From Oceanospirillum linum (GTDB taxonomy: Bacteria; Pseudomonadota; Gammaproteobacteria; Pseudomonadales; Halomonadaceae), in the NCBI RefSeq assembly GCF_001995095.2, contig NZ_MTSD02000003.1:434001-498000 (forward strand): a DNA stretch of 64,000 bases. The letters run 5' to 3'. A model generated the notes under the pieces. The model did not search any database and was not told the origin of the DNA. It saw only the letters and a list, made by a program, of their open reading frames with translations. Every line of letters starts with the position of its first letter. The stretch's first letter is position 1. The position numbers and the translations under genes are program-made. This document shows positions 31,917-51,495 of this stretch, in pieces.

Positions 31917-31940
31917 CATGTAACCGATTGTTTATCATAA

Positions 31941-31971
31941 GCAAAAGGATCTAAAAGATCCTTTTGCTTTT
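31941..31971 (+). terminator. Terminator of yicC
   Basis: GCAAAAGGATCT, three A and AGATCCTTTTGC form a perfect 12-bp stem followed by TTTT. It marks the left edge of the accessory island. Confidence 0.88.
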
Positions 31972-32003
31972 CAAACTGTACGCCCGCAAGCATTAATGAT
32001 TTT

Positions 32004-32018
32004 CTTATAGACTATAAG
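32004..32018. promoter_or_regulatory. Palindrome in the promoter of the defence operon
   Basis: CTTATAG, A, CTATAAG is a perfect 7-bp inverted repeat, 36 bases before the GHKL gene start. It overlaps TATAAG, a possible -10 box, so it could be an operator. No dedicated regulator gene lies in this operon. Confidence 0.4.
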
Positions 32019-32053
32019 CTACTTTACACACCTCCATATCAAAGAGATTTTAA

Positions 32054-33568
32054 ATGGACTTTGAGATTTCCCCTCCCAGCGCTGCGGCCATGCTCGAGTC
32101 GCTCAGGGCCTATGGTTATTCGCTCAATTCCGCTATCGCAGATCTGATAGACAACTCCATCACGGCCAAGGCAAAAAATATCTGGATTACCCTTCGTTGG
32201 GATGGTGAGAACTCATGGATCACCATCCGAGATGATGGGACTGGAATGAGCGAAAAACAGCTTTCCAAAGCCATGGTCGCGGGTAGCCAAAGCCCTCTCG
32301 ACCAGCGAGAGGAACACGATCTAGGTCGCTTTGGACTTGGCCTTAAAACAGCCTCTCTCTCACTTGCACGATCACTTACCGTCGCCTCAAAAACCGGAAG
32401 TACTCCGTTAGCGCTCAGAAGATGGGATCTTGACTACATAGCGGGCCAACAAACAAATGAGTGGCGACTGTTGAAGAGCGGCAGAAGCAATTCAGAGGAA
32501 AAGCTCGCAGGTATCGATAATCAAGAATCCGGCACGGTAGTCCTTCTGGAAAACCTCGACAAACTATGTGCAGGCACTGTCACCAAAAGTCCGGCGCATA
32601 GAGATGAGTTCTACCATCAAATTGACTCTTTATGTGATCATCTTGGCATGATCTTCCATCGTTTTCTGGCCACTTCTTCCAGATTGAAGATCTACATCAA
32701 TGGTGAAACCGAGGCCCATCTCGTAAAGCCTTGGGATCCGTTCTTCTTAAAAAATAAAGCGACAGAGCCCAAGCCAGTCACCAAAATTCCATTTGGTGAA
32801 ACAGTGACGACTGTCCAAGGAGTTATCCTCCCCCATAAAGATATGCTCACTCAGGATGAATATGAGGAAGCAGGCGGCCCGCTTGGCTGGAATGCCCACC
32901 AAGGTTTTTACGTTTATCGCGGAGATAGGCTTCTGGTATGCGGCTCGTGGCTGGGGCTCCGGGAAGGTATTTCAAAGTGGCGCGCAGAAGAACACTACAA
33001 GCTTGCTCGAATTCGTGTCGACATCACCAACGAAATGGACAGTGACTGGAAGATCGATGTCAAAAAGTCCCTAGCAACTCCCCCACAGACTGTCGCACTT
33101 GCCTTAGTTCAGTATGCCTCTCAAGTGAGAAAAGAGGCTCGGGAAATCTTTGCCCACCGAGGTAAGTACGGTAAACGAGAACGCAGGGAAAAAGTTGGCA
33201 AGGTATGGATGGCCAGACAGACTCGTGGGCAGAACACCTATCGTCTTGATCGCAACCACCCCGTTATAAAAAGATTTCTTGAACGTCTTGGAGACCGCAA
33301 AAACGAAGCCGAAGCTATTTTCAGATTGATAGAGGAAACAGTTCCGGTAGAGCAGATTTGGCTCGATTCCGCAGAGTCGCCAGAAAAGAGGTCATCGCCG
33401 TTCGGTGCAGCCTCAGAAAATGAAGTCATCGAGGCTGCGACTGCTTACCTAGACTTGCTTCAAGATGGCAACTCAGCACCGACCGACGAAATAATCAGTG
33501 AGATCTGCGAGCTGGAGTGCTTTTCAGACCATAAAGAAATTATTTACGCACATTTTGGAGCCAGATAA
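32054..33568 (+). CDS. GHKL (MutL/MORC-like) ATPase of a defence operon
   Basis: A 504-residue ATP-binding protein. The Bergerat fold fills about residues 20-130: IADLIDNSITA (N box), IRDDGTGMSEKQL (G1) and GRFGLGLKTASLSLA (G2), the arrangement of MutL and MORC ATPases. The remaining 350 residues are helical and charged and match no family I can name. It is the first gene of a tight operon; the next start is two bases after its stop. GHKL ATPases of this kind were proposed from comparative genomics (Iyer and colleagues) to act as ATP-driven clamps in restriction systems; the role here is inferred from that. Confidence 0.88.
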   Translation: MDFEISPPSAAAMLESLRAYGYSLNSAIADLIDNSITAKAKNIWITLRWDGENSWITIRDDGTGMSEKQLSKAMVAGSQSPLDQREEHDLGRFGLGLKTASLSLARSLTVASKTGSTPLALRRWDLDYIAGQQTNEWRLLKSGRSNSEEKLAGIDNQESGTVVLLENLDKLCAGTVTKSPAHRDEFYHQIDSLCDHLGMIFHRFLATSSRLKIYINGETEAHLVKPWDPFFLKNKATEPKPVTKIPFGETVTTVQGVILPHKDMLTQDEYEEAGGPLGWNAHQGFYVYRGDRLLVCGSWLGLREGISKWRAEEHYKLARIRVDITNEMDSDWKIDVKKSLATPPQTVALALVQYASQVRKEAREIFAHRGKYGKRERREKVGKVWMARQTRGQNTYRLDRNHPVIKRFLERLGDRKNEAEAIFRLIEETVPVEQIWLDSAESPEKRSSPFGAASENEVIEAATAYLDLLQDGNSAPTDEIISEICELECFSDHKEIIYAHFGAR

Positions 33569-33570
33569 AC

Positions 33571-36408
33571 ATGGAATTTCTTGATGAAATCGGTGCGATG
33601 GTCTCAAGTACCATCCAACTTAAGAAAAAAATGAATGGTGGCAAGATTACGCGGGAGCAGCTTTGTGAAGCTGTGGATGCGGTTTTGATAATGACTCCCT
33701 ACAAAGACGACCAGAAAGTCAGAAACAAGTTGATAGAAAATGCTGAGTTCAACAACAAAACATGGATGGACTCAGCACACACCATGGCATCAGAAGACAG
33801 GAACTGGACGGCCTGGCTTACCAAAGCCAAACCCGATATTCAGTGGCTTTACTGGAATCGTTACGAAGAGCTTCTAAGAAAAGAAGGGTGGCCACCGAGA
33901 GTTATCGAAAAGCTGGATGAAACTATTGATGAAACTCTGGGGCAGCTGACTAACCCGGAACAGAAAGGAAGCTGGGACCGCAGGGGCATGGTTGTTGGTT
34001 CTGTTCAGTCAGGTAAGACGGCCAACTACACAGGTTTGATCTGTAAAGCCGCTGATGCAGGCTACAAAGTAATTATCGTCCTCGCCGGTTTCCATAAGAA
34101 TCTTCGCTCCCAAACCCAAATCCGTATTGAAGAGGGCTTCCTAGGGTACGACAAAAGTGATCCGGGAAATCCAAAATTTATTGGCGTTGGAGAGATTGCT
34201 CACGATCACAAAAAGCTGTGGCCCGATGCTGCCACCACTCGGGCCGACAATGGTGACTTTATGGCCAGTGCGACCAAAAATTTTGCTAACAGCATAGACC
34301 GTCCATTGGTCTTTGTGGTCAAGAAGAACAAGTCAGTACTGGAAAACCTGATTGGATACCTAAAAGGCCAAGGTAGAGCCCAGAAAGGCATCACCGACCC
34401 AGCGCAATACGCCCCAATTTCAGAAATTCCACTCCTGCTGATTGATGATGAGTCAGACCAAGGTTCGATCAACACCAATAAATCAAACATCAGGGACCCA
34501 AAGTCCGAAGATATTAAGGAAGTCGACCCAGAGGTGGATCCGACTGTCATCAACGGCCTGATTAGAACGATTTTGAACACTTTCGAGCAATCAGCCTATG
34601 TCGCATACACGGCAACTCCGTTTGCAAACATCATGATCCATAAGGACTCTGACTCGCAAAGTTTCGGAGAAGACCTGTTTCCGAGAAGTTTCATCACCTG
34701 CATTCGGCCACCGACAAATTACGTCGGTCCGCAGAGAATGTTTGGTTATACGGACGCTGAAACCGGGCAAGAAACCGAGGGCTTGCCGCTTACTAGAAAA
34801 ATATCTGATTACGCCGATAGTATGGCCCTGAATGAAAAAAAGGGCTGGATGCCTCCTAAGCACAAAAGCAGTCATATTCCGAAATTCCAAGGCGAATCGA
34901 GGGTACCACCTAGCCTTTATAAGGCACTTCTATCTTATTTGCTCTCGTGCAGCGCAAGACTTCTGAGGGGCCAGGGAAGTAAACACTCCTCAATGCTGGT
35001 ACACGTCACCCGGTTCACTGATGTTCAAAACAAGGTGACCACCCAAGTAAAAGAAGCTTTAACGAGCATCCGTCATTGCCTCGTTTATGGTAGTGATGAT
35101 CCAAACTTTTCAGTCTGGAAAGATCTGAAACATCTGTGGCAAGAGGATTACACCAAAACCACCACCTCAATAAATGAGGAACGCTGCCCTGCTCATGAGT
35201 GGCGTGAAATTGAACAGGTTCTTCCGAAAGTTGTTCAAACCGTTATAGTGCGCGAGATCAATGGAAGTGCAGGTGATGTGCTGGACTATGAACGGCATCG
35301 TGGCACTGGGCTCAACGTCATAGCAATTGGCGGAGACAAGCTTTCTCGAGGGCTCACACTTGAAGGCTTGCTAGTTAGTTACTTTACGCGTCCAAGCAAA
35401 ACTTACGACACGCTGATGCAGATGGGCCGATGGTTCGGATACAGAGATGGTTTTGTAGACCTCACACGGCTTTTCGCTCCAAAAGAACTTATCAACTGGT
35501 TCCGCCATATTTCAGATGCCGACATTGAACTGAGAAATGATTTTGAAACGATGTGTGCTGTGGGGGCGACCCCCGAGAATTTTGGGCACAGGGTTCGAAC
35601 CCATCGGCTTCTGCAAGTAACGTCGCCCGTCAAGATGCGAGATGGGCAGAAAGAAAAGTGCAGTTATAGCGGCGACTTCGTACAAACCATTGTTTTTGAT
35701 GCAAAAGAAGATTCTAGAAGCCAAAACCTCGTTGCCGTTAAAGCACTACTCCATGAAGCTGAAAAAAATGGCAAGTTTGACCTCAATAGTTCTGAACATC
35801 GTCCACTTTGGCATGAAGTCCCCGTAAAGCCTGTACTGAACTTTCTAGAGTCATATAAGTCTGGTTCCGACGGTACTATTCGGAGGGTCGATACTCGCCT
35901 GCTTGCTAAATACATCGGCGCTCAGAACACCAAAGGCAACCTTAAAGACTGGACCGTCCTAGTTTCAGGTATCACTCCCAAAGACGAAGAAGGAACTCTA
36001 AACTTGGGAGGCTTTCAAGTTGGACTTCGAAATCGCGGTGAAAGAGAAGGAACAGAGGAATACTTCCGTACCGGGGTACTCACTGAACCGACAGATGAGG
36101 AAGTAATCGTTCTCAATGAACAGGACTACCAACGGGCACTTGCCGAAAGACGGAAAATCGTGGAACAAAAAAAGGGGCCGGAGGAAGCCGCAAAGGTCCA
36201 ATCGCCAGGCGGCCCACAACTTCGAAAATATCGTCCCAATGCAAAAGGGCTGCTTATCATCTATCCGATAGATCGCAGGGCACACAAACTCGATGAGGTG
36301 AAAGTCCCCTTCATGGGCTTTGCAATCAGTTTCCCAGGTATCGATGGTGATCAAGATATTCCTGTCGAGTACATTGTGAACTCTGTAGGACAACAGACTG
36401 ATGGTTAA
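33571..36408 (+). CDS. Z1-domain SF2 helicase-like protein
   Basis: A 945-residue P-loop protein of the Z1 family, a superfamily-2-helicase-related class found beside restriction genes. The motifs are Walker A GSVQSGKT (143-150), DDESDQ (292-297, motif II), YTATPF (346-351, motif III), and the C-terminal core GDKLSRGLTLEG and QMGRWFGYR (617-625, motif VI). Residues 1-140 and about 700-945 are extra domains of unknown fold. It probably translocates on or opens DNA for the nuclease encoded next. Its 3' end overlaps the PD-(D/E)XK gene by 8 bases. Confidence 0.9.
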   Translation: MEFLDEIGAMVSSTIQLKKKMNGGKITREQLCEAVDAVLIMTPYKDDQKVRNKLIENAEFNNKTWMDSAHTMASEDRNWTAWLTKAKPDIQWLYWNRYEELLRKEGWPPRVIEKLDETIDETLGQLTNPEQKGSWDRRGMVVGSVQSGKTANYTGLICKAADAGYKVIIVLAGFHKNLRSQTQIRIEEGFLGYDKSDPGNPKFIGVGEIAHDHKKLWPDAATTRADNGDFMASATKNFANSIDRPLVFVVKKNKSVLENLIGYLKGQGRAQKGITDPAQYAPISEIPLLLIDDESDQGSINTNKSNIRDPKSEDIKEVDPEVDPTVINGLIRTILNTFEQSAYVAYTATPFANIMIHKDSDSQSFGEDLFPRSFITCIRPPTNYVGPQRMFGYTDAETGQETEGLPLTRKISDYADSMALNEKKGWMPPKHKSSHIPKFQGESRVPPSLYKALLSYLLSCSARLLRGQGSKHSSMLVHVTRFTDVQNKVTTQVKEALTSIRHCLVYGSDDPNFSVWKDLKHLWQEDYTKTTTSINEERCPAHEWREIEQVLPKVVQTVIVREINGSAGDVLDYERHRGTGLNVIAIGGDKLSRGLTLEGLLVSYFTRPSKTYDTLMQMGRWFGYRDGFVDLTRLFAPKELINWFRHISDADIELRNDFETMCAVGATPENFGHRVRTHRLLQVTSPVKMRDGQKEKCSYSGDFVQTIVFDAKEDSRSQNLVAVKALLHEAEKNGKFDLNSSEHRPLWHEVPVKPVLNFLESYKSGSDGTIRRVDTRLLAKYIGAQNTKGNLKDWTVLVSGITPKDEEGTLNLGGFQVGLRNRGEREGTEEYFRTGVLTEPTDEEVIVLNEQDYQRALAERRKIVEQKKGPEEAAKVQSPGGPQLRKYRPNAKGLLIIYPIDRRAHKLDEVKVPFMGFAISFPGIDGDQDIPVEYIVNSVGQQTDG

Positions 36409-37411
36409 CGATTTTGATCGTATCGTTAATGCATGGAATAGCTTGCTTGATGAACCAGGTGCTCTAACCCAAACAGCGAGGTATCGCATCTGTGGTTCTT
36501 CCAATTTCGGTGCTTACCTCGCGATCCGTTTTGATGACAAAGCCCCGATCCTCGAAATCGGACCGATTACTCCCGATATCTTGAAGGATGCTCCCCTGCC
36601 GATAATCAAGGGAGTTGACTCCGAGCTTTCGTATCACAGTCAGGAAATGTTTCTATCGCTTACTCTTAAGCAAACCGCCTCAATCGATATTTTCCTGACC
36701 TTGGCTGCCCGTCTCACTGATGAGCTTTCAGATGTGGAGCATCCAATCACTGGATATGGAGTGATAAGAAAAGTCCTGATCGTCTGGCGAGCTTTCTTTT
36801 CTTCCGAGAAGAAAATGCTTTCAATTTCCGAGCAAACAGGGCTGGCAGGAGAGCTTATATTAGCGATCCTGTTCATGGATAACAGCATTGAAGTAGCCAC
36901 TGTTATCCGAGCGTGGAAGGGTAGCGAGAGAAGCCATCATGACTTCCAACTTCCTCTCGCTTCTGTCGAGGTAAAAGCCACTATCGCACACAACATTGAA
37001 ACTGTTTCCATCAGCAGCTTGCGTCAACTCGACCCTACAGGGACCCAAAAGCTGTTCCTTGCTCAGGTGGCAATGGACTCTCATGATCATGGGGATCAAA
37101 CACTGCCTCACCTCGTAAAGAACATTCGCCAACGCCTCTCATCTTTTCCGGCTTATAGGCTCGAGTTCGAGGAGAAACTCCTTGCCTCAGGCTATCGCGA
37201 CAAGGATGAATCTCATTACTCTCAGCAATCGTTTCAGGTAAGAAAAGTTCGATCATTCTGCGTTGATGACAACTTCCCAAAACTCACACACAACTCAATC
37301 CCGGAAGGGATCGTAGAAGCAACATACCAGATCAATCTGGGCACAGTGGCCTTGCAAGCCCTCACGTTCGACGAATTAATTCTAGCAATCTCGAGTAACC
37401 AAAATGATTGA
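36401..37411 (+). CDS. PD-(D/E)XK-motif protein, probable nuclease
   Basis: A 336-residue protein of the PD-(D/E)XK motif family (DUF4420 type). The likely active site is HDF (Asp181) followed by VEVKAT (Glu190, Lys192), with the preceding helix TGLAGELILAILF. The RAWKGSERSHHDFQLP block is typical of the family. This is the most likely cutting subunit of the system. Both ends overlap neighbours by 8 bases (ATGGTTAA and ATGATTGA), which suggests coupled translation and fixed stoichiometry. Confidence 0.85.
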   Translation: MVNDFDRIVNAWNSLLDEPGALTQTARYRICGSSNFGAYLAIRFDDKAPILEIGPITPDILKDAPLPIIKGVDSELSYHSQEMFLSLTLKQTASIDIFLTLAARLTDELSDVEHPITGYGVIRKVLIVWRAFFSSEKKMLSISEQTGLAGELILAILFMDNSIEVATVIRAWKGSERSHHDFQLPLASVEVKATIAHNIETVSISSLRQLDPTGTQKLFLAQVAMDSHDHGDQTLPHLVKNIRQRLSSFPAYRLEFEEKLLASGYRDKDESHYSQQSFQVRKVRSFCVDDNFPKLTHNSIPEGIVEATYQINLGTVALQALTFDELILAISSNQND

Positions 37412-39479
37412 CTCCGGCGTCCAAGAATTCCGATATCAGCTTCTCGCAGACATTTCTGACCCTGATAATGGAAATCTATCTGAAGAATACCCTGTGGAAA
37501 GATTTACCGAATACGCGACATCACTACTCTCGGAATCAGGTGTATCGTTCGATCTTTCTATCGGACACATACAGCGACAGTTCGGCTCTGGTAGTGTTCG
37601 TTGTGATGCCTGGGGTGCTGATCTTTCTGAAGGACGGTTAGACTTGGTAGTTTCGGATTATTTTGGATTTGATAACCCTGAATCTATCAACAAGTCGAAC
37701 CTTGAAACCTCACTGAAACGCGCTATTCGACTACTCGACTTCTGCCAAAAAACGCAGCTGTCGGAAATTGAACCTTCTTCCAAGACTTACGACTGCGTTT
37801 CGTTAATAAAAGAATCCTTAGGATCAATCAGCCAGATCCGACTCCACTACCTGACTGACTCCGAGATTTCTCTCAGGGAAGAGCCTAGCATCCAGGGGCC
37901 TGCTGGCATCGATCTCCAAATTCACAAGTGGGATATTGTCCGACTCAGCAGAGCACAGGCATCAGATGCCAACCAAGAATGTATAGAGATAGACTTGGTT
38001 GAACGCTTTGGACGCGGCCTGCCATGCCTATCCATGCAGGGGAACAGTGATGAGTACAGCGGCTACCTCGCAATTCTGCCCGGAGAGTGGCTGGCTGATC
38101 TCTACGAGGAATACGCTGGAAGACTGATGGAGCTGAATGTCCGTTCATTTCTCCAACAGAAAGGTAAGGTCAACAAGGGTATCAGAAACACCATTCTCAA
38201 TGAGCCAAGCCGATTTTTAGCATACAACAACGGAATTTCAGCAACAGTAGAGTCTCTCAACATTGAGCAAAACGATTCGGGCCAAGAAATCATTACCTTC
38301 ATACGCGGACTCCAAATTGTAAATGGAGGTCAGACAGTGGCTTCCATCCATCGTGCGAAAAAGGCTGATAAATGCCCTCACCTTAACCGGGTAGCCGTTC
38401 AAGCAAAAATCACCAAGGTTAATCCGGAGAGCCTTGATGAATTGGTTCCCCAAATCAGCCGATACTCGAATACCCAAAACAAGGTAAACGAGGCTGATTT
38501 CGCAGCGAATGATAGCTTTCACGTTGAAATTGAGCGGCTTTCTCAGACAGTCTGGGCACCTGGCCAACAGTTTAAATGGTTCTACGAGCGCGCACGCGGT
38601 CAATACCAAGTTGCTAAGAGCAGGGCGTCAACAACTCCAGCAAACCGTAGAAAGTTCGAAAGCATAAACCCTTCTAACAAAAAGTTTGTGAAAACCGACC
38701 TTGCTAGATACCAAAATGCATGGGCACAGCTTCCGCATATTGTTTCACGAGGAACACAAAAAAACTTTGTCTATTACATGTCAAAAGTGAAGCAGGAAAA
38801 ATTAACCCCAGATATCAGCTTTTATAAAGATCTCATCGCAAAAGCAATTATTTATAAAAAAGCGGAATCAGTTGCAAGACATCATGCATTTCCTGCATAT
38901 AGAGCTAATGCTGTCGCCTATACTGTCTCTCTGTTTTCTGCAAAGACATACGGAAGATTATTGCTTAGCAAAATTTGGAATCGACAAGATGTTAAACCAA
39001 TTGTCGAGCAAGTGATTCATGATTGGATGCCAATAGTTTTAGACTGCATTATTGAGTCATCTCGAGGGAGAAATGTTACCGAATGGGCTAAAAAAGAAGA
39101 CTGCTGGAGAGAGGTGCTTCAGCTAAACCTTCCAATCCCTGATGAATTAGAATCAGAACTCTCAGAAGGAGACCACTTGCCTACAGTAGGGGCTGAAGCA
39201 AGAAGTGGTAAATTATCAATCACAACTGAAGACCGCCAGAATATTGCCTTAGTTATGAGCATTGATGGTGATACTTGGTGGGAAATCACTAAAGTCGGAC
39301 AAAGCAATGGGCATCTTTCAGAGTTTCAATGTAGTTTAGCTAATACCATGGCCGGATATGCTGCGGGATCTTGGGCAAAAGTCCCGTCTGTAAAACAAGC
39401 AAAACATGCAGCTAAAATTATTAAACATTTAAAAGAAAAAGGAACACTAGACTCTATTCAATTAATAGAAGCTCACTAA
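37404..39479 (+). CDS. AIPR-family (abortive infection phage resistance) protein
   Basis: A 691-residue protein with the AIPR core: FLAYNNGISATVESL (about residues 272-286) and GLQIVNGGQTVASIHRA (about 302-318), followed by ISRYSNTQNKVNEADFAANDSFH. AIPR proteins occur in phage-resistance loci, but their biochemistry is poorly known. It ends the four-gene operon and overlaps the convergent methyltransferase gene by 26 bases. Base composition falls sharply within the gene: 58% G+C at 38041-38100 but 30% at 38821-38880 by direct count, suggesting a recombination joint. Confidence 0.88.
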   Translation: MIDSGVQEFRYQLLADISDPDNGNLSEEYPVERFTEYATSLLSESGVSFDLSIGHIQRQFGSGSVRCDAWGADLSEGRLDLVVSDYFGFDNPESINKSNLETSLKRAIRLLDFCQKTQLSEIEPSSKTYDCVSLIKESLGSISQIRLHYLTDSEISLREEPSIQGPAGIDLQIHKWDIVRLSRAQASDANQECIEIDLVERFGRGLPCLSMQGNSDEYSGYLAILPGEWLADLYEEYAGRLMELNVRSFLQQKGKVNKGIRNTILNEPSRFLAYNNGISATVESLNIEQNDSGQEIITFIRGLQIVNGGQTVASIHRAKKADKCPHLNRVAVQAKITKVNPESLDELVPQISRYSNTQNKVNEADFAANDSFHVEIERLSQTVWAPGQQFKWFYERARGQYQVAKSRASTTPANRRKFESINPSNKKFVKTDLARYQNAWAQLPHIVSRGTQKNFVYYMSKVKQEKLTPDISFYKDLIAKAIIYKKAESVARHHAFPAYRANAVAYTVSLFSAKTYGRLLLSKIWNRQDVKPIVEQVIHDWMPIVLDCIIESSRGRNVTEWAKKEDCWREVLQLNLPIPDELESELSEGDHLPTVGAEARSGKLSITTEDRQNIALVMSIDGDTWWEITKVGQSNGHLSEFQCSLANTMAGYAAGSWAKVPSVKQAKHAAKIIKHLKEKGTLDSIQLIEAH

Positions 39480-41019
39480 CAACTTTCGCAAGCTGTACTG
39501 CTAAAAATGGCGGTACAGCATTGCCAACTTGCACGTATTGTTGCGTACGGTTCCCTTCAAAAAAATAATTATCAGGAAAAGTCTGAATCCTTGCAGCTTC
39601 ACGTACGGTCAGACTTCGGCATTGAGTAGCATCTGGATGGATAAAGTAGTGGCCATCTTTTGAAATATGACTTGTAACAGTTGTTGCAGGCCTTCCTTTT
39701 CGCTGCACCCGAAAACGGTCGGCAAACTTACCACTTTTCCAGTTAGCATGATCCGGAGCCAAGAGATCAGGATAGTCTTCCGCTTTTGGAAATGGCTTAT
39801 CACTGCTTCCAAATACACTAGGATCGGCCCAACATGCACTAAACAAATAACGCGCCAAATCACTATTCATATGCCCACGAGCATGATGGTTCAGTACTTT
39901 GTTAGGCCTTTGTGACAACAACCATCGAGTTAGCACTGATTCATCAAGTTGACTTGGTAATTCAGGATAGCTTTCACCAACAATCGGGGATGAAAATTTT
40001 AGCTGTTTCGCAGCTATCTTCATTTGCTCTATAACTGCTTTGTATTTTTTATTCCCTTTGAGTGACTGAGCCAAGATAGTTACTTGGTCACAAATTACTT
40101 CCTTCCATTTAGCATCTGAATCTCTCTCTTTTGAGAGTTTGCTACGGAGCGAAGGCAAACCTTTTAGAACATCTTCGACAGGAACAGTTGTCTTTTGACG
40201 AAGTATTCTAGGCCGCGCAGACGAATCTTCCGCAACCCCCAAAAGAATGACCCGATGTCGTGCTTGCGGTACCCCATAATCCTCAGCTCGAATAATGAAG
40301 TCTCGATTATCGGAATATTTTGTATCGAAAAGCTCATTACAGTCAGGCAGCTTAACAAAAGAGTAAATATGATATTTCCGACCATCTTTAATTTTGTTAA
40401 TGGCAAAGCTTGGATTCTTGAGATCCTCTAAAATACGAGGAAATATAAAATCGCCCTGAACCTTCGAGGAGAGAATGCCTTTTACATTCTCCATCACGAA
40501 TACATCAGGCTGGATTATAGAAAGAACATTCAAGTATTCCTGATACAGAAAGTGTCTATGATCTGCTTCTGCAGTGTATCCCTTAATACCTTTATTCCTA
40601 GCACGACCAACCAGTGAATACGCCTGGCATGGCGGCCCCCCAATAACAACCCAAGGTTCACCTTTATACCGTTCTTTTAGTTGCTGAAGTTTAGGGATAA
40701 TTCTATCGTTATCATCGCCTAGTGCTGTTGGTTCACCAAGAGTCTCAGCTGATGCTTCTTTCCAAAGATCAGCATGCCGCTCTACTAGCACTTCTTTGCT
40801 AATGCGACCTTCCACATAATCAAAGTAAGAGAGCTCTTTGCCTTGCGCTTTGAGTAATCGAAAAAATGCTCTTAGTGTTAGGGTTTTATGGGCACTTACT
40901 TCGCGCTCTACGGACATTCTGATTTTGAACTGAGTTTTATCAGATTGGAACGCGCTAAAGCCCTCACCCAGACCACCAGGGCCTGCAAATAAGTCGATGA
41001 TATTTACAGTTTTTTTCAT
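39454..41019 (-). CDS. DNA (cytosine-5) methyltransferase
   Basis: A 521-residue C5-cytosine methyltransferase, long for the family because of inserts of about 60-100 residues between motifs I and IV and before motif IX. Motif I is IDLFAGPGGLGEGF, motif IV GGPPCQAYSLVGRAR has the catalytic Cys131, motif VI is FVMENVKG, motif VIII QARHRVILLG, and motif X QVGNAVPPFLA. Motif IX is GRPATTVTSH. It is convergent with the GHKL-Z1-nuclease-AIPR operon and probably protects host DNA from it. Target sequence is unknown. It is A+T-rich (35% G+C at 40021-40080). Confidence 0.93.
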   Translation of the reverse strand: MKKTVNIIDLFAGPGGLGEGFSAFQSDKTQFKIRMSVEREVSAHKTLTLRAFFRLLKAQGKELSYFDYVEGRISKEVLVERHADLWKEASAETLGEPTALGDDNDRIIPKLQQLKERYKGEPWVVIGGPPCQAYSLVGRARNKGIKGYTAEADHRHFLYQEYLNVLSIIQPDVFVMENVKGILSSKVQGDFIFPRILEDLKNPSFAINKIKDGRKYHIYSFVKLPDCNELFDTKYSDNRDFIIRAEDYGVPQARHRVILLGVAEDSSARPRILRQKTTVPVEDVLKGLPSLRSKLSKERDSDAKWKEVICDQVTILAQSLKGNKKYKAVIEQMKIAAKQLKFSSPIVGESYPELPSQLDESVLTRWLLSQRPNKVLNHHARGHMNSDLARYLFSACWADPSVFGSSDKPFPKAEDYPDLLAPDHANWKSGKFADRFRVQRKGRPATTVTSHISKDGHYFIHPDATQCRSLTVREAARIQTFPDNYFFEGNRTQQYVQVGNAVPPFLAVQLAKVVSELLLIE

Positions 41020-41102
41020 TTTTCACACGCACGAAGGTTTGCGGCAGGATAATGCTAATCAAGATAAATAGCTAGGAACACATTGATCGTGGATGGATAC
41101 TT

Positions 41103-41441
41103 TTAATGATGCAATTGGCTGCAAAGCTCACGGATAAACGTCACCATAGGTTCAGGTTCTTCTGAGGTGAAAATATCAACACAATCCGAGCGATCGTAAA
41201 TCTCCGGACATTCTGCATCACCCAAATTCTCGGCTTCGTGAAGACTGAAACGTAGACTTTCAGGATTTTCACGGTCTTCTTTATTCAGATAGTCGATCCA
41301 CAGCTGGTAAAACTGGTCACCGATTCTAAACTGGTCACCGATTCTAAAGTAGTACGATGGGCAAATATCATTACCATAACTGTTATCAATGAGTTTTACG
41401 GGTAGATCACTACTATAAATCCCCTGATTCCAAGCTTTCAT
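41103..41441 (-). CDS. Hypothetical acidic protein, second gene of SOS-type operon
   Basis: I do not recognise this 112-residue protein. It is acidic and soluble, with no signal or membrane segment. The frame contains an exact 18-base tandem duplication (41311-41346) that repeats RIGDQF in the protein, giving FRIGDQFRIGDQF. ATG 41441 overlaps the stop of the preceding gene (ATGA) and has GGGAG eight bases upstream. It lies in the LexA-box operon and 84 bases before the methyltransferase start on the same strand. Confidence 0.65.
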   Translation of the reverse strand: MKAWNQGIYSSDLPVKLIDNSYGNDICPSYYFRIGDQFRIGDQFYQLWIDYLNKEDRENPESLRFSLHEAENLGDAECPEIYDRSDCVDIFTSEEPEPMVTFIRELCSQLHH

Positions 41442-41797
41442 TGCACAGCTCCCTGCTGACTTACAAGCCACGCATCCACATTATCGATTACCCGGTTGAA
41501 GCAATTGATCACCTCAGCAACGTCAAGCTCCGCCCAGTTGTAGAATGAAGCATGTCTACTCTCTGCATCCTGCTCATCAAGCAGATACATATTCCCGTCC
41601 ATATAGTCATGAATGTCTGAAAATCCGGTCAGATTTTCCGGCAAAATCTGCCGTTTGATATCTTCCTGAATCAGTCGTTTAGCGATTACTGAACGATATG
41701 AAACAACGTCTTCAATGCTCACTAAGGAATGGATATCGAGACCTTTAACAACATCCAGATACGCAACGCGATCTTCAAGAACTGAAATAGCATCCAT
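41438..41797 (-). CDS. Hypothetical protein, first gene of SOS-type operon
   Basis: An unrecognised 119-residue acidic, mostly helical protein (for example VVSYRSVIAKRLIQEDIKR, WAELDVAEVINCFNRVIDNV). ATG 41797 is preferred: CGAGG lies eight bases upstream, and the longer frame to 41878 would run through the LexA-box hairpin. The four-base overlap with the next gene indicates an operon of two partners. Small size, pairing and SOS-type control are reminiscent of toxin-antitoxin or phage-response pairs, but nothing in the sequence proves that. Local G+C is about 40% (41641-41700). Confidence 0.65.
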   Translation of the reverse strand: MDAISVLEDRVAYLDVVKGLDIHSLVSIEDVVSYRSVIAKRLIQEDIKRQILPENLTGFSDIHDYMDGNMYLLDEQDAESRHASFYNWAELDVAEVINCFNRVIDNVDAWLVSQQGAVQ

Positions 41798-41802
41798 ACT
41801 AA

Positions 41803-41846
41803 AAACCTCGCCTATACTGTTTTTATATACAGTATAGGCGAGGTTT
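41803..41846 (-). promoter_or_regulatory. LexA (SOS) box in an 18-bp inverted repeat
   Basis: TACTGT, eight bases of T/A, ACAGTA (41815-41834) matches the gammaproteobacterial LexA consensus completely. It is the core of a longer perfect repeat, AAACCTCGCCTATACTGT and its complement, with an eight-base loop. On the minus strand TATACT can serve as -10, with TTAGCA 17 bases upstream as -35, so bound LexA would block the promoter. The 3' arm contains the GAGG ribosome binding site of the gene at 41797. Confidence 0.82.
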
Positions 41847-41874
41847 AAGTTTTTGCTAATTTTTTCGCACAAAA

Positions 41875-42744
41875 TCACACAATCGGCAGATAAATATCCG
41901 TTATCAGCTCGTGTTCATCCACTTCCGGGAAGAAGTTGTGGTAGTGGAAGTAACAGGGGCTGTCGCGGAGTTCTTCGCCGCTTTCCGGTAGCCATTGTCC
42001 GTACAGGTAATAGACCTTGGCATCCAGCCCTTCGTGGGGGCCGTGGTGGCGCACTACCGCGCAACGGCCTGCGGCCATGGTTTTGTTGATGATGCTAAAG
42101 GCATTTTCCGGAACCGGTTGCGGGACTTCGCCGGCGATATCAAAGCGGAAATCCTCCGGGGCGGCATTTTTCGGGTCGCACAAAATAATACCGAAGGTTT
42201 TGCAGCTGGCGATAGGGGAGTAGCCGGTTTCGATACGCCACTGGCGGAACTGTCCGGCGGAGGCCATGACGGCTTCCATGGGGCCTTTGTGTTCCAGTAC
42301 GGCGATCTGCATCTCGGGTTGGGTTACGATATTGACGTTCACAGGTGTCTCCTGTTGATGATCTGGTGTCGGATTTTGGTAGTGGTGGTTCCAGAGCATC
42401 CAGTCGGCCTGATGGCGAAATTCGCTGGGAGACTGAGCAAAACCCCGTCTGAAAGCACGGGTAAAGGACTCCGGGCGTTCAAAGCGGGCATCAAAGGCAA
42501 TATCGGTAATGGGGCGATCCGGCTGAAAGGCCAGCTGGTAGGCGGCCCGTTTCAGTCGCAGTTGCTGCACAAAGCGGGTGACGCTCACGCCCATAAACTG
42601 GCTGAACTGCCGGTGAAAGTGATAGCGGGAAAAGTGCGCTACCTGACTCAGCTCATCCAGAGTCAGATCACGATCCAGATGTTGGTAGATGTAGTCACAT
42701 ACCGCCAACATGCGTTGTTGATAGCGCTGTTTTGCCTGATTCAC
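41875..42744 (-). CDS. AraC-family regulator with GyrI-like effector domain
   Basis: A 289-residue transcription regulator. Two helix-turn-helix units fill residues 8-108 (LTLDELSQVAHFSRYHFHRQF and ITDIAFDARFERPESFTRAF). The C-terminal half (about 130-289) is a GyrI/SOUL-type small-molecule-binding domain, as in Rob and BmrR partners. It lies about 100 bases downstream of the toprim gene on the same strand. Composition returns to high G+C here (63% at 42001-42060), unlike its left neighbours. Target genes are unknown; a link to the condensin-like operon is only positional. Confidence 0.88.
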   Translation of the reverse strand: MNQAKQRYQQRMLAVCDYIYQHLDRDLTLDELSQVAHFSRYHFHRQFSQFMGVSVTRFVQQLRLKRAAYQLAFQPDRPITDIAFDARFERPESFTRAFRRGFAQSPSEFRHQADWMLWNHHYQNPTPDHQQETPVNVNIVTQPEMQIAVLEHKGPMEAVMASAGQFRQWRIETGYSPIASCKTFGIILCDPKNAAPEDFRFDIAGEVPQPVPENAFSIINKTMAAGRCAVVRHHGPHEGLDAKVYYLYGQWLPESGEELRDSPCYFHYHNFFPEVDEHELITDIYLPIV

Positions 42745-42846
42745 TCCGCCCCCTGATTATCTTGTCTGATGATGTTTACTGTCGGCTACAAGCCTGAGTT
42801 CTGCTGAAGGAACCACCTTCTGATACCAGTATGCGATGACGCCGCA

Positions 42847-43758
42847 CTAACAACCTGACCCATCTTGCGCTTTATCGGGATAGATATTCAGAATGCGCAG
42901 TGCTAAACCCTGCATCTTTTGCTGACGCAGCCCTCGTTGTTTCAGAGTGGGCAGAAGTGTTTGTAGCGCAGGATTAAGTTGTGCCCGATAGGTTTGCAGC
43001 GTGTGATTAGAGGTATCCTGCTTCTCCGGGTTCATCAGGGGACGGGCGTGTGCTTCCAACTGATCGTCGGGCGGTAACAGCAGCTGCTGATAACCTTCGC
43101 TGATGGCAATTTTAACGCCGGCGGGATCAAAATCACCAAAATAGATCATGGGATGCGTCTTATCATCGGGGTACAGAGCTTGCCATGCCTGCCGAAGCTT
43201 TTTTACGCCTCGGGCATAGAGCTGATCACCCCGATAAACAATCAGGTCATCTGACTGCGGGCTGAGGCAAAAATCCGCCAGCCGATAGAAGCAGTCGAGA
43301 TTTTCAACGGTGATCAGGCGGCTAAAGCGGCTGAGATCCAGGGCGGTTACGTCAAGATCCACAACCGGAATCTGTCCTGTCAGTTCACAGGGCAGAGGTT
43401 TCGGCAGATAAACCAGTACGCGGTTTTCCCGGGGTTTAAGGCCCTGCTGTTTATCTTCCTGATCGCTTTGTTGCGCTTGCTCCATTCGGGTTTTGTCGCT
43501 CAGATCATCCCGGAAGCTGTGGTGCCCCAAAAGCCGTTGGCGCTGATCAATGGCATTCAGTAGTTCAGCGGTGAGATAAAACTCATTCAGTTGCAGGCTA
43601 TTAGCGGGACAAAGATCTGAGGGCAGATCCTGATCGAGACACCATTGGATCAGCTGGGTTAGGGTTTTACCGCGTTTTACTTTCGCCCGATGTTCACGGC
43701 GAACTTGGGCTTCTTTATCCCGCAGCCAGCGATTTACATTACCCGGTAAAACGTCCAT
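42847..43758 (-). CDS. jetD: Toprim nuclease subunit, JetD/MksG-like
   Basis: A 303-residue protein with a C-terminal toprim domain, the plasmid-cutting subunit in Wadjet and MksBEFG systems. The toprim glutamate is in ITVENLDCF (about Glu152), and the metal-binding aspartates are in IYFGDFDPAGVKIA (about Asp209 and Asp211). The N-terminal 140 residues should bind the SMC complex. It follows the broken kleisin frame by 27 bases and is the last gene of the operon. The family call rests on motif spacing and context; length is shorter than many JetD proteins. Confidence 0.8.
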   Translation of the reverse strand: MDVLPGNVNRWLRDKEAQVRREHRAKVKRGKTLTQLIQWCLDQDLPSDLCPANSLQLNEFYLTAELLNAIDQRQRLLGHHSFRDDLSDKTRMEQAQQSDQEDKQQGLKPRENRVLVYLPKPLPCELTGQIPVVDLDVTALDLSRFSRLITVENLDCFYRLADFCLSPQSDDLIVYRGDQLYARGVKKLRQAWQALYPDDKTHPMIYFGDFDPAGVKIAISEGYQQLLLPPDDQLEAHARPLMNPEKQDTSNHTLQTYRAQLNPALQTLLPTLKQRGLRQQKMQGLALRILNIYPDKAQDGSGC

Positions 43759-43785
43759 TTGGTGCCTCCTGTAACGTCTGAATGC

Positions 43786-45058
43786 CTACACCCGCAACTG
43801 CAGCTGAATATCCTGAATCAGCATCAGGTTGTTGGTGGCAGATGCCTTGGCTTCCTGATTGGTCAAGCGGAACAGGCGCTGATCCTGTCGGGGCAGGGCC
43901 TGATAATCGGAGATAATCTGGTAAAGCCAGATCTCAGGGTCCCATTCCAGCTGCTGCTCATCCCGATAAGCAAGGGCACTGACAACAGGCTGGTGCTCGG
44001 CCAGCTCCGGGGTTTCGGTGGCGCGGTCGATGATATACAGATAAAAGTTTTCCACATCCTGTTTCAGCGCTTTCTGTCGGGCTGCGACCTCTTCATTCGC
44101 AAATGGCGCGGTGAAAGTGGCGCTCCTGGCATCCGGTGTCGGGGTGTGATCACTTTTCGGCAGATCATGCACCAACTCGGCCAGACGCTGACGCTCTCCG
44201 GCCCGGTCAAAAGCTGCTGCACCCTTCAGCTTTATTGGTGCTGCCTGATTAAACAGCTCCGGTACGCTACTGCGATGGGGGGTAATCTGCCGGGCTATAA
44301 GCGGGGTGCTGCCTGAGGAAGCTGACCATATTGTTAATCAACAGTGACCGGGACTGCTGCTGACGGAATTTTGCTAACAGAGCGATCAGGCGCTTCTGCA
44401 CTTCCAGCAGACTGCCATGATGCCCACTCAGCTGATGCTGCAGGCGGCTAACCAACAGCTTACGCAGATGGCTGTTACCCTCTGCCAGCTCGATCATCTG
44501 GTTAAAGTCGATCAGTTGCAGTCCATCCAGCAAGCGTCTCAGCTGTTGCTGGGCACGCTCGTTTTCACGAATCTTTTCGTTCAGGCTACCAACAAAACCG
44601 AAGTCGGTGTTCAGTCGGTTCCAGAGACTGTCGATCGCTTCTTCAAACTGACCGGACAGGTCATGCACCAGCTCGGTAAGACGCTGCAGTTGCATCTCTG
44701 CAACGGTGTAATCGCCTTTAAATTGCGCTTCTTTGTAGGCCTGAACCCGGTTGTGAATCTGCTCCAGCTTTTGGGCAACATCGGCATTCACCTGTCGGCG
44801 GTTTTCATCCGATACCATGCTGGCGATCAGCTCACTCAACTGAGGTCGCAGGGTGAGGGACTGCGTCTCATCCGGTCGCCAGAGAATACGGGCAGCAATC
44901 AGTTTTTTCAGGGCACTATCACTAAGCTCAGTCTCTTCGACAAAGCCCTGCAGATAGCCCTGCATCAGCACCTTATGGTATTTACCCAACAGCGCCAGCC
45001 GCTCGGCCCCAATGGTGAACAGGCTGGAGGTGAGATTGCGGTCTGCTGCATCCGCCAT
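43786..45058 (-). pseudogene. jetA: Kleisin-like subunit JetA/MksF, split by a frameshift
   Basis: One gene is divided into two frames. The 5' part (45058 to 44267) reads a winged-helix and helical kleisin-like protein of 263 residues ending PADYPPSQ. Deleting one base from the run of six G at 44277-44282 (+ strand; six C in the coding sense) joins it to the 3' frame as PADYPHRSSVPEL, which then runs open to 43786. The repaired product is 423 residues, close to the family size. The start shares one base with the preceding stop (TGATG). It may be a real mutation, phase variation, +1 slippage or a sequencing error. Confidence 0.75.
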
Positions 45059-45678
45059 CAGAGCAGTACCTCCTGGGTCGGATCATCCTCCACCGGCAGG
45101 TGCTCTTCGTCACGGATAAAGCGAATCATATCCAGCAGATAATCAATTTTGCCGGTCACCACGTAATAGTGGCGATCGCCGTGGGGCTGTTGCAGATAAC
45201 CGTGATCTTTCAGGCGGCGGAAAATCAGTTTTACCTGCTGATCCAATGCCTCACTCTGGCTGTTAAAGAAGCGGTCGTTAGCCAGAGTCTGCAGTCGCTG
45301 ACGCAGACTCTGGTTGTCCTCTGCCCGCAGAACAAACTCCTGCAGCTTGAGGGTATCGCCAGCACTGAGGGCGCTGTCATGGCCCAGAGTTTCCTGCACC
45401 AGCTGCAGCCATTCCAGTACCGGCAGCAGGGATTGTACGGTCAGAGCAAACTGCTGGCTGATCTGCTCCCGTGCTTCAGGGGTCAACTCCTGATAGGCAA
45501 GAAAGTAGACGCTTTTGTCATCATTAGACGCCAGACGTCGGTTCAGGGGGCGCAGGTAATGATTAATGGCGTCACGGGTTTCGCCATCACTCAGGTGACG
45601 ATAACCATCAGGATCACTGATGGCGCAGACAAAATCACCCGCAAGCAGGCGCTCTAACAGAGGGCCGTGTTGAATCAT
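45058..45678 (-). CDS. jetB: MukE/MksE/JetB-like condensin accessory protein
   Basis: A 206-residue winged-helix protein (HLSDGETRDAINHYLRPLNRRLA near the N-terminus; VKLIFRRLKDHGYLQQPHGDRHYYVVTGKIDYLLDMI at the C-terminus), the layout of MukE and MksE, which bridge kleisin and SMC. It overlaps the SMC gene by four bases (ATGA) and the kleisin gene by one, so it is co-translated with both. The assignment rests on predicted fold and position. Confidence 0.75.
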   Translation of the reverse strand: MIQHGPLLERLLAGDFVCAISDPDGYRHLSDGETRDAINHYLRPLNRRLASNDDKSVYFLAYQELTPEAREQISQQFALTVQSLLPVLEWLQLVQETLGHDSALSAGDTLKLQEFVLRAEDNQSLRQRLQTLANDRFFNSQSEALDQQVKLIFRRLKDHGYLQQPHGDRHYYVVTGKIDYLLDMIRFIRDEEHLPVEDDPTQEVLL

Positions 45679-48600
45679 GCTGAGGTCTCCTGATGGATTG
45701 CAGAGCTGGCCTGTTTCTCGGCCAGACGCTCCGCCAGTTTGCTGACTTTAGGTTGAATACGCTTGAGTCGGCGCAGGTCCGGACGCTGCTGATCCGCTTC
45801 AATCAGGTATCGGTGCCGGAACAGCATAAGCACATCAGATTCCGGGTTCGGGAAGGCTCCCACCACGACAATCCGGTTGCTACTGCAGGCCTGGAACAGA
45901 CGTTCGACGTTGTGATACGCCAAGGTGCCGATCTCATCAATCGGCCAATGCAGAGTAACGTCCGCATCGCCTTTTAACAGGCGGGTAAACGCCAGCAAGT
46001 ACTTACATAGAATCAGGTACGCCATACCGTGGCTGGAGGATTCCAGCAGCTGACGATCATTTTTGATCACCAGATCCGACCCGCCTTCACTCAGGTGTAG
46101 TTCCAGTCGCAACAGAGATTCAAAGCTGTACTGTTCATCGGAACGCAGCAGCTCGGCTACATCGGACAACGCATTCAGATATTCGTCAGTCGGTTCGTCG
46201 TGACCACTGTCACGCCACTGATCGTAGAGCTTGGCGAACTTTTTCAGCGGCTGCCAGAAACCCAGCTCATCGATGGTGGAAAGAATACGTACCTCGGAAC
46301 GGCTGATCCCTTCCAGCACCAGATCATCAGAGACCGCTTCACTCAGTCGCCGACTCTGGCGGTTGATACGGCGGTTGATGTCGCTGAACACATCGAAGAA
46401 TTTTTTCAGATCACCGCCAATGTTTTCACCCATCTCCAGCAGCTGCTGTTGCTGATCTTTCAGGATATGCAGCAGGTCGGTGAGAATCGGCAGTTGTTCC
46501 CGGGTTCCGGCAAAGTCCGGCAGCTTACTTTTCTCATGCTCAAGGCGATCAATAAATTCGCGGCTGGCATTTTTATTCAGCTCGCTCTCAAACTGACTGA
46601 CATTCTTATCCAGCAAAGCAAGTTGCTTACCGCGTTGCTCCAGCGCTTCATTGGCCCGCGCCAGTCGCTCCGTCAGGTCGCTGCCATCAGGCTGCTCAGC
46701 CGGAATACTACCCAACAGATCCAGTTCATCCAGTCGAAGCAGAACATTACGCAGCAGGCCCAGCGTTTCTTCCGCCTGACGGATGCGGTTCTGATGCGTT
46801 TCTTTATCACCTTCCAGCTGTTTGCTCTGACGGCTGAAATCACTTTTCAGCTCACTCAGAGCCTGCTGCAGATTACGCTGCTGCTGCTTGAGTTCGGTTT
46901 CTTCCGACAACAGCTGTGGGCGACGCTGCTGCCAGTCGACCTGCATAAAATCCTGCCACTGACGCAGGCTGTCCTGACGCTCTTCCACCTGACGGATCTG
47001 CTGTTTCAGCTGCTCCTGGCGTTGCTTCAGTTCGCTGAGACGCTTCGGATCAATCCCTTTGGCGGACAGCTCCTCTTCAAAGGCTTTCTGCAGCTCTTTA
47101 AGCTGCTTGCGGTTTTCTTCCCGGCGCTCTGCCAGTTGCTGATCCAACTGCTCGACCTGGTCATCCAGCTGCTGCAAGGCACCTTGCCAGTCGGCTTTCA
47201 GCTCCAGGCGCTGATTCTGGTGATCATCCTTCATCGCCTGCAGATCCAGCTGCTGACGGGAGGTGATCTGTTCCAGCTGCTGTTTTTTCTCATTCCACTG
47301 ATCAGACAATTGCTGCTTGCGGGCATTAAGAGCGGCTTTCTGTTGCTCTCTTAAGCGATCACGGGCATCACGTACGTAGTCGATATTCTGTTCGTGTTCC
47401 TGCTGCTGCCACTGCACCTGTTCCAGTGCGGCTTTAGCTGTCTCAAAGTTTTCGTGACAGGCTTTGAGCATTTTTTCCGCATCCGCCTGCCCGGCTTTCG
47501 CAGTGGCCAGCTGCAGCTCGGCCTGCTGGATGCGGTGTTGGATCGCGGCTTCATCCTGGGCGTAATCCGGCAGATCCAGCTGATTCAGTTCCAGCAATAA
47601 ACCGTACAGGCTGTGTTCGGTCTCTGAACCTGCTTCCTGAGACAGTGCTTCGCTAAGGCGGGGCTGCAGATCACTGCGCTCCAGAAGCTCAGGGGCGATC
47701 ACCTTGCCCAGTGTTTGCTCCCAGTCCTGATAGCTCCCACGGAGGAAATGGCGCAAGCTGCCCTGTTCCGGGGTCAGCTGACGCTGCAATTTCTGCCGCT
47801 CTGCATCCGCCTGCTGTACCAGCTGACGCTGACGGCCTAACTGATCATCTGCCTGCTGCTGAGCCGTTCGTGCTTCGTCCAAAGCTTGTCGGCTACGCTG
47901 TACCTGCTGCTGGTGCTGACGGGCAACCTGCTGCGCGTCTTCCAACCGGGCATCGGCTTCTGCCAACGCTTCCCGTTCCTCTTCGGTTTCCAGCGGGGCA
48001 TTCAGCTGGCTTTCCAGTACGGCGATAGCACTCTGACATTCGGATTTCTGCTCGGCGAACAACTCCTGTTGCTGCTGAAAACGGCTCTGGAATGCCTGAT
48101 CCAGTTCCGCCAGCTGATTCTCCTGCGCTTCCTGCTTCTCACGGATCTCCAGCTGCAACGCCTTGACCTTACGGCCATGCTGCTCGCTATGACGGTCCAG
48201 GGCTTCAGACAGTTTAATTTTGCGCAGATCCAGTTGACGCTCCAGATCGCCCTGTTGCTCGGCCATCAACTGATACTGTTCCTGCAGGTCCTGGAGTGTT
48301 TCCCGCCAAAGAGGCAGGGAATCAGTATCCCGCTGCAACTGCGCCATGTCCTGCGCTTCGTAGTCGTCGAAACGTTGCTGCATGCGATCCAGTCGGGCCT
48401 GAGTCTCTTTCAGGTCGTGGCTGGCTTTGCTCAGGCTGCTGTTGATGGCGCTTTCCTGCTCCTGAAACGTTTCTTTCAGGTGGCTGATCTGTTTGCGCAG
48501 ACCATGCAGAATCTCTTCGCTATCTGCTTTTTGCTGCAGTTGTTGCTGCTGATCGTTTTGCAACAGAGGCTGCAGACCAACCAGCTGAGACTCCAGGCCT

Positions 48601-49391: not shown

Positions 49392-49690
49392 ATCACATCC
49401 TTCAGGCTGGTCGGTTAAAAATGGGGGTTATTCTACCTGCTGCATCCAAAACTGGCGCGGATTTATCTTATCACCTGATCGCAAAGATGCTATTTGACGG
49501 TTAGTGCGATGGCACTGGATCACATCTTGAGCGAAACCAGTAAAAACCCTCGGTGCAAGTCAGGAAATATCTGTCATACTTGTCATCTTAATACTTATTT
49601 TAACTGGCCTCGTTTTTATGCCTGAAATGACCCCGGGTATTTCTTAAGCAGCCTTCAGATACTTCTGAATTTACAGAACGGAACTCTGCT
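49392..49690. other. 299-base divergent promoter region
   Basis: No gene is seen between the SMC gene (-) and the diguanylate cyclase gene (+). The stretch next to jetC contains GGATGTG as a plausible minus-strand ribosome binding site. CTTGTCATCTTAATACTTATTTT around 49585 is A+T-rich and could contain a + strand promoter. Nothing else is recognised. Confidence 0.4.
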
Positions 49691-51403: not shown

Positions 51404-51495
51404 TATCTCAGGCTGGCATTTCAGCCCTAAGAGTCGCATCCGATCCTGAATACCGATAAAATCCTTGCTCAGAATACTGGTTTTAGGAATCCGAC

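Follow-up and report, generated by a model that had tools for sequence, protein, structure and literature searches.

An MzaA-less relative of the MZA system in Oceanospirillum linum, with an exchangeable C5-cytosine methyltransferase

Operons that join a GHKL ATPase, a superfamily-2 (SF2) helicase, a restriction-endonuclease (RE)-fold protein and a DNA cytosine methyltransferase (DCM) were predicted to be restriction–modification systems by Iyer 2008 (PMC2292703). The sections of that paper on the third MORC/paraMORC operon type define the helicase motif DThhQXuRhFG and the nuclease motif E-D-ExK, list Vsr among the components and propose DNA looping; they note the AIPR protein, leave its role open, and give no AIPR fold or methyltransferase exchange. 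A system of this kind is catalogued as MZA (mzaABCDE; NCBIfam NF041932-NF041935, PADLOC MzaB-E). The relevant passages of Miller 2022 (PMC9523054) call mzaABCDE 'validated' and describe computationally a 'Type II' set of Z1, DUF4420, C5-methyltransferase and AIPR proteins, and part of PMC5379612 presents a Z1, DUF4420 and DCM island in Corynebacterium. Our literature search, which was thin on subscription journals and preprints, found no experimental mechanism paper for Mza. Here we describe an operon in a 64,000-nucleotide stretch of Oceanospirillum linum (contig NZ_MTSD02000003.1, positions 434,001 to 498,000 of the forward strand; hereafter the window, in whose own numbering positions are given) that is a real, laterally acquired member of this known kind, from its less studied MzaA-less branch.

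Four genes on the forward strand encode an mzaB-like MORC/paraMORC GHKL ATPase (504 amino acids; 32054-33568), an mzaC-like Z1 superfamily-2 ATPase (945 amino acids; 33571-36408), an mzaD-like DUF4420 PD-(D/E)XK nuclease (336 amino acids; 36401-37411) and an mzaE-like AIPR protein of the long form (691 amino acids; 37404-39479). The gaps between them in the open reading frame (ORF) list are 2, -8 and -8 bases, just as the first-pass annotation of this DNA had given them. The C5-cytosine DNA methyltransferase (MTase; 521 amino acids; 39454-41019, reverse strand) that it saw facing the operon converges on it tail to tail, overlapping the mzaE-like 3' end by 26 bases. The AIPR assignment draws on Pfam, alignment and predicted structure, and the other four on the ORF, PADLOC, Pfam and motif alignments. 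All Pfam matches are above cut-off (E-values: HATPase_c_3 4.9e-31, Z1 1.9e-76, DUF4420 2.4e-60, AIPR 3.3e-96 and AIPR_N 6.8e-32 in the mzaE-like protein, and DNA_methylase 6.9e-43 in the MTase). PADLOC recognizes MzaB (7.8e-122), MzaC (3.6e-211), MzaD (7.5e-32) and MzaE (2.8e-106), and the MTase fits many of its DNA methylase models, with DrmMII on top (among the matches listed, 25 of 56). NCBIfam returns the same four Mza families, all below their equivalog cut-offs (bits/cut-off: MzaB 481/850, MzaC 804/1500, MzaD 158/420, MzaE 454/1050). A profile made for this analysis finds no match in the window to MzaA, the sigma-70-like protein of MZA, and yicC lies directly upstream of the operon. Because MzaA is absent and all four cut-offs are missed, we file the operon in an MzaA-less sister branch; by sequence criteria it is related to MZA but falls outside the NCBI definition of it.

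MZA likewise carries B, C, D and E in this order, as overlapping or abutting genes, and local identity to an Escherichia coli MZA locus is 44% for B, 44% for C, 29% for D and 35% for E. It differs in having MzaA, in an E. coli MzaE of 598 amino acids, which the window AIPR exceeds by about 90 residues, and in showing no annotated C5-MTase, such as the window has, at the four E. coli loci seen. With Z1, DUF4420, C5-MTase and AIPR present and MzaA absent, the window holds the Type II set by gene content, for which the partial account in PMC9523054 gives a Z1 protein of about 925 amino acids, a DUF4420-type nuclease, a C5-MTase, AIPR and, in few cases only, mzaA; identity to mzaBCDE is about 20% there against 29-44% here. 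The hallmarks from PMC2292703 are also present (GHKL motifs, a DThhQXuRhFG helicase, an E-D-ExK nuclease and a DCM nearby). The operon is not a new system. The first-pass annotation had called it a candidate defence system and credited Iyer and colleagues with predicting such restriction systems: the credit is borne out by the relevant part of PMC2292703 and the defence-type reading is supported, but the kind is already catalogued as MZA in NCBIfam and PADLOC and the gene set is described in PMC9523054. What is new here are the frequencies of the MTase and T:G-repair partners, the MTase exchange, the link between MzaA and AIPR length, and a fold model for AIPR. Among the E. coli MZA loci, mzaB is seemingly split by IS421 in two of four (L101:5798-8610 and L112:8759-11610), and in E. 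coli ES5 (L001:1-14260) a complete mzaA-E is preceded upstream by a second mzaC-D-E set, whose mzaC runs off the edge of the stretch; an integrase pseudogene separates the two.

The catalytic motifs of MzaB, MzaC, MzaD and the MTase, whose inactivity would have spoken against the first-pass annotation, are intact in the window. We aligned each with its family (91, 99, 92 and 78 rows, respectively) and required at least 93% conservation of the residues checked. MzaB has D30/D33/N34, D60-x-G62-x-G64 and G91-R-F-G94-x-G96, kept in at least 93% of its 91 rows, and MzaC has G143-x-V-Q-S-G-K-T150, D292-D-E294, T347-A-T-P350 and D613-T-L-M-Q-M-G-R-W-F-G623. The nuclease residues E151, D181, E190-x-K192 and Q209 of MzaD are conserved in its family, and the MTase has D9-x-F11..G16, P129-x-C131, E177-N-V179, Q252-x-R254-x-R256 and G499-N500-x-V502. 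We take these GHKL, SF2 and MTase residues to be the motifs usually so named. The operon is probably functional.

Comparison with a congener, G004, places the edges of the inserted unit at about 31917-41874, because in G004, whose yicC is 97% identical to that of the window, the slot from yicC to an AraC-like gene is occupied by a gene for an HNH nuclease (HNH_2 protein) (window 31914 corresponds to L108:1476 and window 41875 to L108:2711). In another congener, G003, a HipA-like gene adjoins yicC. The operon is thus a lateral insertion in a variable slot, and the unit therefore reaches beyond the 32054-41019 of the first-pass annotation to include two small reverse-strand ORFs of 122 amino acids (41103-41471) and 146 amino acids (41438-41878), neither of which is assigned to a family by PADLOC, Pfam or NCBIfam. 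GC content is 50.6% for the whole window and 49.2%, 47.3% and 47.1% for mzaB, mzaC and mzaD. Within mzaE it is 45.5% for codons 1-505 and 39.4% for codons 506-691 (38919-39479); the MTase has 42.1% and the two small ORFs have 41.7-42.5%. An inverted repeat (41803-41846) with arms of 18 pairs, followed by T-rich sequence, lies close to the right end of the inserted unit; the repeat arm is not found in L108 at up to 3 mismatches. The interval from yicC to gmk (31917-51495 in the window) is an insertion hotspot in the genus: of the four genomes with both genes on one contig, G004 has the shortest interval at 4.3 kb, followed by G003 (14 kb), the genome of the window (about 19.6 kb) and G001 (36 kb). 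In G002 and G005 the two genes lie on different contigs.

To sample relatives we scanned genome contigs with a three-sequence MzaC alignment, which gave at least 559 confirmed relatives, and kept the best 80, a sample that leans towards the query. Their ORFs were typed with profiles built for this analysis, and headline counts come from L004-L083, which leaves out the window itself (L003) and L084 (the same place as L074). MzaB, C, D and E are all present at 76 of the 80 loci (L045, L049, L051 and L071 are incomplete), so their grouping is not due to chance. Partners were counted at the 53 complete loci whose BCDE genes are flanked on each side by 3.5 kb or more: a C5-MTase is present at 50, and a repair-type gene at 48 (Vsr at 45, a MutY-like helix-hairpin-helix (HhH) protein at 3). 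Over all 76 complete loci, whatever their flanks, the numbers are 65 and 62. Pfam confirmed the Vsr identity in two cases, of which one is a profile seed, and the HhH glycosylase label is our reading of a protein in which Pfam sees a sub-threshold HHH motif only. The 53 MTase copies are downstream on the reverse (24) or forward (13) strand or upstream on the forward (11) or reverse (5) strand, and 43 of them are within 1 kb of the operon. We found three C5-MTase genes in the 3.78-Mb host genome, from which we estimate the chance of one lying so near the operon at a few per cent. When the window MTase is compared with plasmids (best 12 of 275 records), its top four relatives come from records that also contain MzaC, at distances of about 3.5, 3.2, 1.7 and 6.6 kb. 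Vsr and HhH partners would fit an active MTase, since a cell in which the enzyme really makes 5-methylcytosine (5mC) needs T:G repair. Such frequent partners suggest that MZA as catalogued (A-E) omits a regular part outside E. coli. The spread of the system is patchy: counting that of the window in both cases, Z1 occurs in 4 of 58 relatives and MzaC at E <= 1e-60 in 7 of 369 genomes of the class. At L004:16000-16662 a MutY/EndoIII-like HhH protein, with relatives in L005 and L009, sits between mzaE and the MTase; at many other loci Vsr is near the MTase.

The linkage that the first-pass annotation had proposed to look for is therefore there, and its picture of five families as one defence-type system is well supported, with the correction that the MTase is an exchangeable partner and not a fixed fifth subunit. 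Among the best 80 loci the closest relatives of the window locus are those of Marinobacter daepoensis (L004) and M. zhejiangensis (L005). B, C and D of the window are 80-91% identical to theirs, whereas the MTase is 43-44% identical and on the opposite strand; between L004 and L005 the MTases are 95% identical, with B, C and D at 80-85%. AIPR residues 1-505 of the window are 91-92% identical to those of L004/L005 and residues 506-691 are 61% identical, compared with 98% and 95% between L004 and L005. The MTase region of residues 270-420, in which C5-MTases carry target recognition, is 28% identical between the window and L004 (alignment of the window with L004-L007). More widely, 113 pairs formed by 38 loci have MzaC cores at least 80% alike, and in 58 of these 113 the best MTase match is below 60%. 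The strong exchange cases (B above 80%, D close to 80% or higher) pair the window with L004/L005, L026 with its group, L034/L036 with that same group, L017 with L030 and L058 with L065; each time the MTase is also on the other side or strand, and in most of them B, C and D are about 77-97% identical. Judged by these identities, the MTase is an exchangeable partner of near-identical operons. Pairs of operons whose greatest difference is in the MTase, such as those of the window, M. daepoensis and M. zhejiangensis, are natural material for the question of what AIPR does. One pattern suggested by these three loci, that the C-terminal part of AIPR is always matched to the MTase, is ruled out by L017 and L030, where E413-590 is 92% identical and the MTases 50% alike.

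AIPR proteins are common in restriction-like operons, and the relatives of this operon give testable clues to their role. An AlphaFold2 model of the window protein (60 of 87 alignment rows; mean pLDDT 85.2, pTM 0.56) predicts a PD-(D/E)XK fold at about residues 1-190, a ParB/sulfiredoxin (Srx) fold at about 200-412 and a helical C-terminal part. The modelled N-domain resembles AF1548 (Z 9.3 over 116 residues, root mean square deviation (rmsd) 3.1), AspBHI (9.1; 135, 3.6), FokI (8.7; 156, 4.5), MspJI (8.6; 134, 4.0) and HamAB (7.4; 148, 4.0). A (D/E)xK motif is absent from this domain in the window protein and is not conserved across the 87 rows: position 68 is D in the window and in 12% of rows but S in 50%, and D80, present in the window and in 85% of rows, has V or F in place of K at the second residue after it. 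Modelled alone (46 of 85 rows; pLDDT 81.4), the predicted core at 200-412 matches PadC (Z 6.3 over 97 residues, rmsd 3.9), pNOB8 ParB (5.6; 115, 5.4, and again at 5.5), sulfiredoxin (4.8; 96, 4.2, down to 4.3) and Caulobacter crescentus ParB (3.5; 92, 4.0), and the ParB/sulfiredoxin superfamily accounts for 10 of the 11 rows listed. The core, which may bind a nucleotide, keeps NNG and VNGGQT in all or almost all aligned sequences. A sequence search of solved structures gave nothing at E <= 0.1 for MzaC, MzaD or MzaE.

The modelled core is thus akin to the SspE/DndB/ParB-CTPase fold proteins (SspE Z 4.4 over 121 residues, rmsd 4.5), from which AIPR would differ in its nuclease-fold N-domain. 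The step to this fold is a short one, because the part of PMC3506569 on AIPR links it to DndB and PMC12704722, in its relevant part, calls DndB ParB-like; the word AIPR does not occur in the text of PMC12704722 (count 0), and our literature search found no paper that calls AIPR a ParB/Srx fold. PMC3506569, in the same part, predicts an N-terminal HEPN domain, a toxin, in AIPR proteins. For the MzaA-less branch the model says RE fold instead, at odds with that prediction; HEPN is not among the best 50 structural rows listed for the AIPR model, which excludes nothing.

We consider it reasonably likely, and favour, that the operon is an ATP-dependent, restriction–modification-like anti-phage system of the MzaA-less Mza branch, accompanied by the MTase usual among its relatives. 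The MTase would place 5mC on the host's own sites; MzaB, as a GHKL clamp, and MzaC, as a Z1 motor, would come together on unmarked DNA and recruit MzaD to cut it. MzaD, with its full active site, is probably the cutter. The modelled AIPR is most likely not, because its nuclease-fold N-domain has no (D/E)xK motif; we propose it as a DNA-contacting, nucleotide-gated reader or licensing subunit because its core is predicted to have a ParB/sulfiredoxin-type nucleotide-binding fold.

Several observations weigh against this scheme. A restriction endonuclease of fixed target is unlikely, because fixed specificity would not tolerate MTase exchange at near-constant BCDE. The window MTase has no Vsr match beside it and none in its genome (98.5% complete). 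Three of the 53 well-flanked loci (L011, L035 and L050) have no C5-MTase, and two of them have no Vsr either, L035 being the one with a Vsr match; nor is a C5-MTase annotated in the shown stretches of the four of four E. coli Mza loci (55 E. coli genomes matched). The methyl mark may therefore be dispensable, or be supplied by a host MTase. The AIPR core scores Z of about 6, under 8 and in the grey zone, and its Foldseek E is 0.075; at E <= 0.001 Foldseek matches neither of the two AIPR models. AIPR identity also does not track MTase identity given the other three proteins over the 75 loci that have BCDE and an MTase of at least 300 amino acids: partial correlations are 0.00 for B, -0.11 for C, 0.25 for D and -0.01 for E. 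Where the MTase is upstream (24 loci) they are 0.24 for D and 0.23 for E, and where it is downstream (51 loci) 0.42 and -0.23. Although distant pairs are near saturation, these values argue mostly against AIPR, and mildly for MzaD, as the partner of the MTase.

The same E. coli loci, the exchange of the MTase between operons whose B, C and D are, in most strong cases, about 77-97% identical, and the naming of the AIPR family for abortive infection would all suit a methylation-independent anti-phage system, which the E. coli Mza may be too, and in which BCDE acts, for instance, by abortive infection triggered by a phage structure and the MTase is separate, hitch-hiking or anti-toxin-like. We regard this as a possibility, but a doubtful one: the association with a C5-MTase (50/53) and a T:G-repair-type gene (48/53) is too tight for a hitch-hiker, and the top four relatives of the window MTase on plasmids are themselves Mza-linked.

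A bolder form of the restriction–modification-like reading would make AIPR the specificity or licensing subunit of the whole class: a dead nuclease-fold DNA-binding domain with a ParB/Srx switch would recognize the target of the linked C5-MTase, MTase and AIPR parts would be exchanged together while B, C and D stay, and the low-GC block of the window (3' mzaE plus MTase) would have been joined inside mzaE. We hold this to be unlikely at present. Among the close pairs (the 113 pairs from 38 loci, in 10 clusters), the partial correlation with MTase identity is 0.53 for A (87 pairs), 0.46 for E1-200, 0.46 for E201-412, 0.29 for E413-590, 0.00 for Cc and -0.12 for D, and 1, 2, 16, 44, 83 and 1052 of 2000 within-cluster label shuffles, in the same order, reach the close-pair value; the shuffles ignore kinship, and few independent exchanges lie behind the values. 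Close pairs would thus favour MzaA and AIPR as the partners of the MTase, which the whole set does not, and we treat this as a lead, not a result.

Modification-dependent, type IV-like restriction would turn the complex against modified DNA and leave the linked MTase to another task. It is brought to mind by AspBHI and MspJI, two modification-dependent enzymes whose folds are among those nearest to the modelled AIPR N-domain. They are tied there with AF1548 and FokI, the match covers their C-terminal part, which we take to be the nuclease domain and not the 5mC-reading domain, and AIPR lacks the (D/E)xK motif; an attack on 5mC beside an active C5-MTase would moreover be suicidal, and we judge this reading highly improbable. 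Least probable of all is MutL/Vsr-like repair of deaminated 5mC in place of defence, since, for all that the set of GHKL protein, helicase, RE-fold nuclease, MTase and Vsr has its counterpart in very-short-patch repair, that the relevant part of PMC2292703 draws the parallel with MutL-MutH/Vsr-UvrD, and that a Vsr or HhH protein accompanies 48 of 53 loci, the spread is patchy, the unit sits in a variable slot and mzaABCDE is called validated in the passages of PMC9523054 on it.

The length of AIPR goes with the presence of MzaA: it is about 600 amino acids with MzaA and usually about 695 without. Scored at 53 loci, MzaA is present with a short AIPR at 38 and absent with a long one at 12; three have neither MzaA nor a long AIPR, and none has both. 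The Fisher test (p 1.7e-9) is not independent evidence, because in a FastTree of 89 MzaC rows both traits change only twice each. All MzaA-bearing rows fall in one 64-row group (support 100), and the window lies outside it, in the MzaA-less part with L004-L007. L013 and L019 were scored as lacking MzaA in this count. Both have, just past mzaE and converging on the operon, a 1100-amino-acid Sigma70_r4 protein (L013:15941-19336 and L019:15899-19249), with no MzaA match upstream. L039, L057, L077 and L081 form a small clade within the MzaA group that has no MzaA match and carries the MTase directly upstream of mzaB.

Beyond the inserted unit, an operon on the reverse strand (42847-49391) encodes DUF3584 (E 1.8e-248), MksE-like and weakly JetD-like proteins, a divergent Mks/Wadjet-like SMC set, and much of it is also found in the same interval of the congener G003 (L109). 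One of its genes looks broken in the window, because two ORFs of 263 and 129 amino acids (43786-45058, reverse strand) correspond to a single 412-amino-acid ORF in L109.

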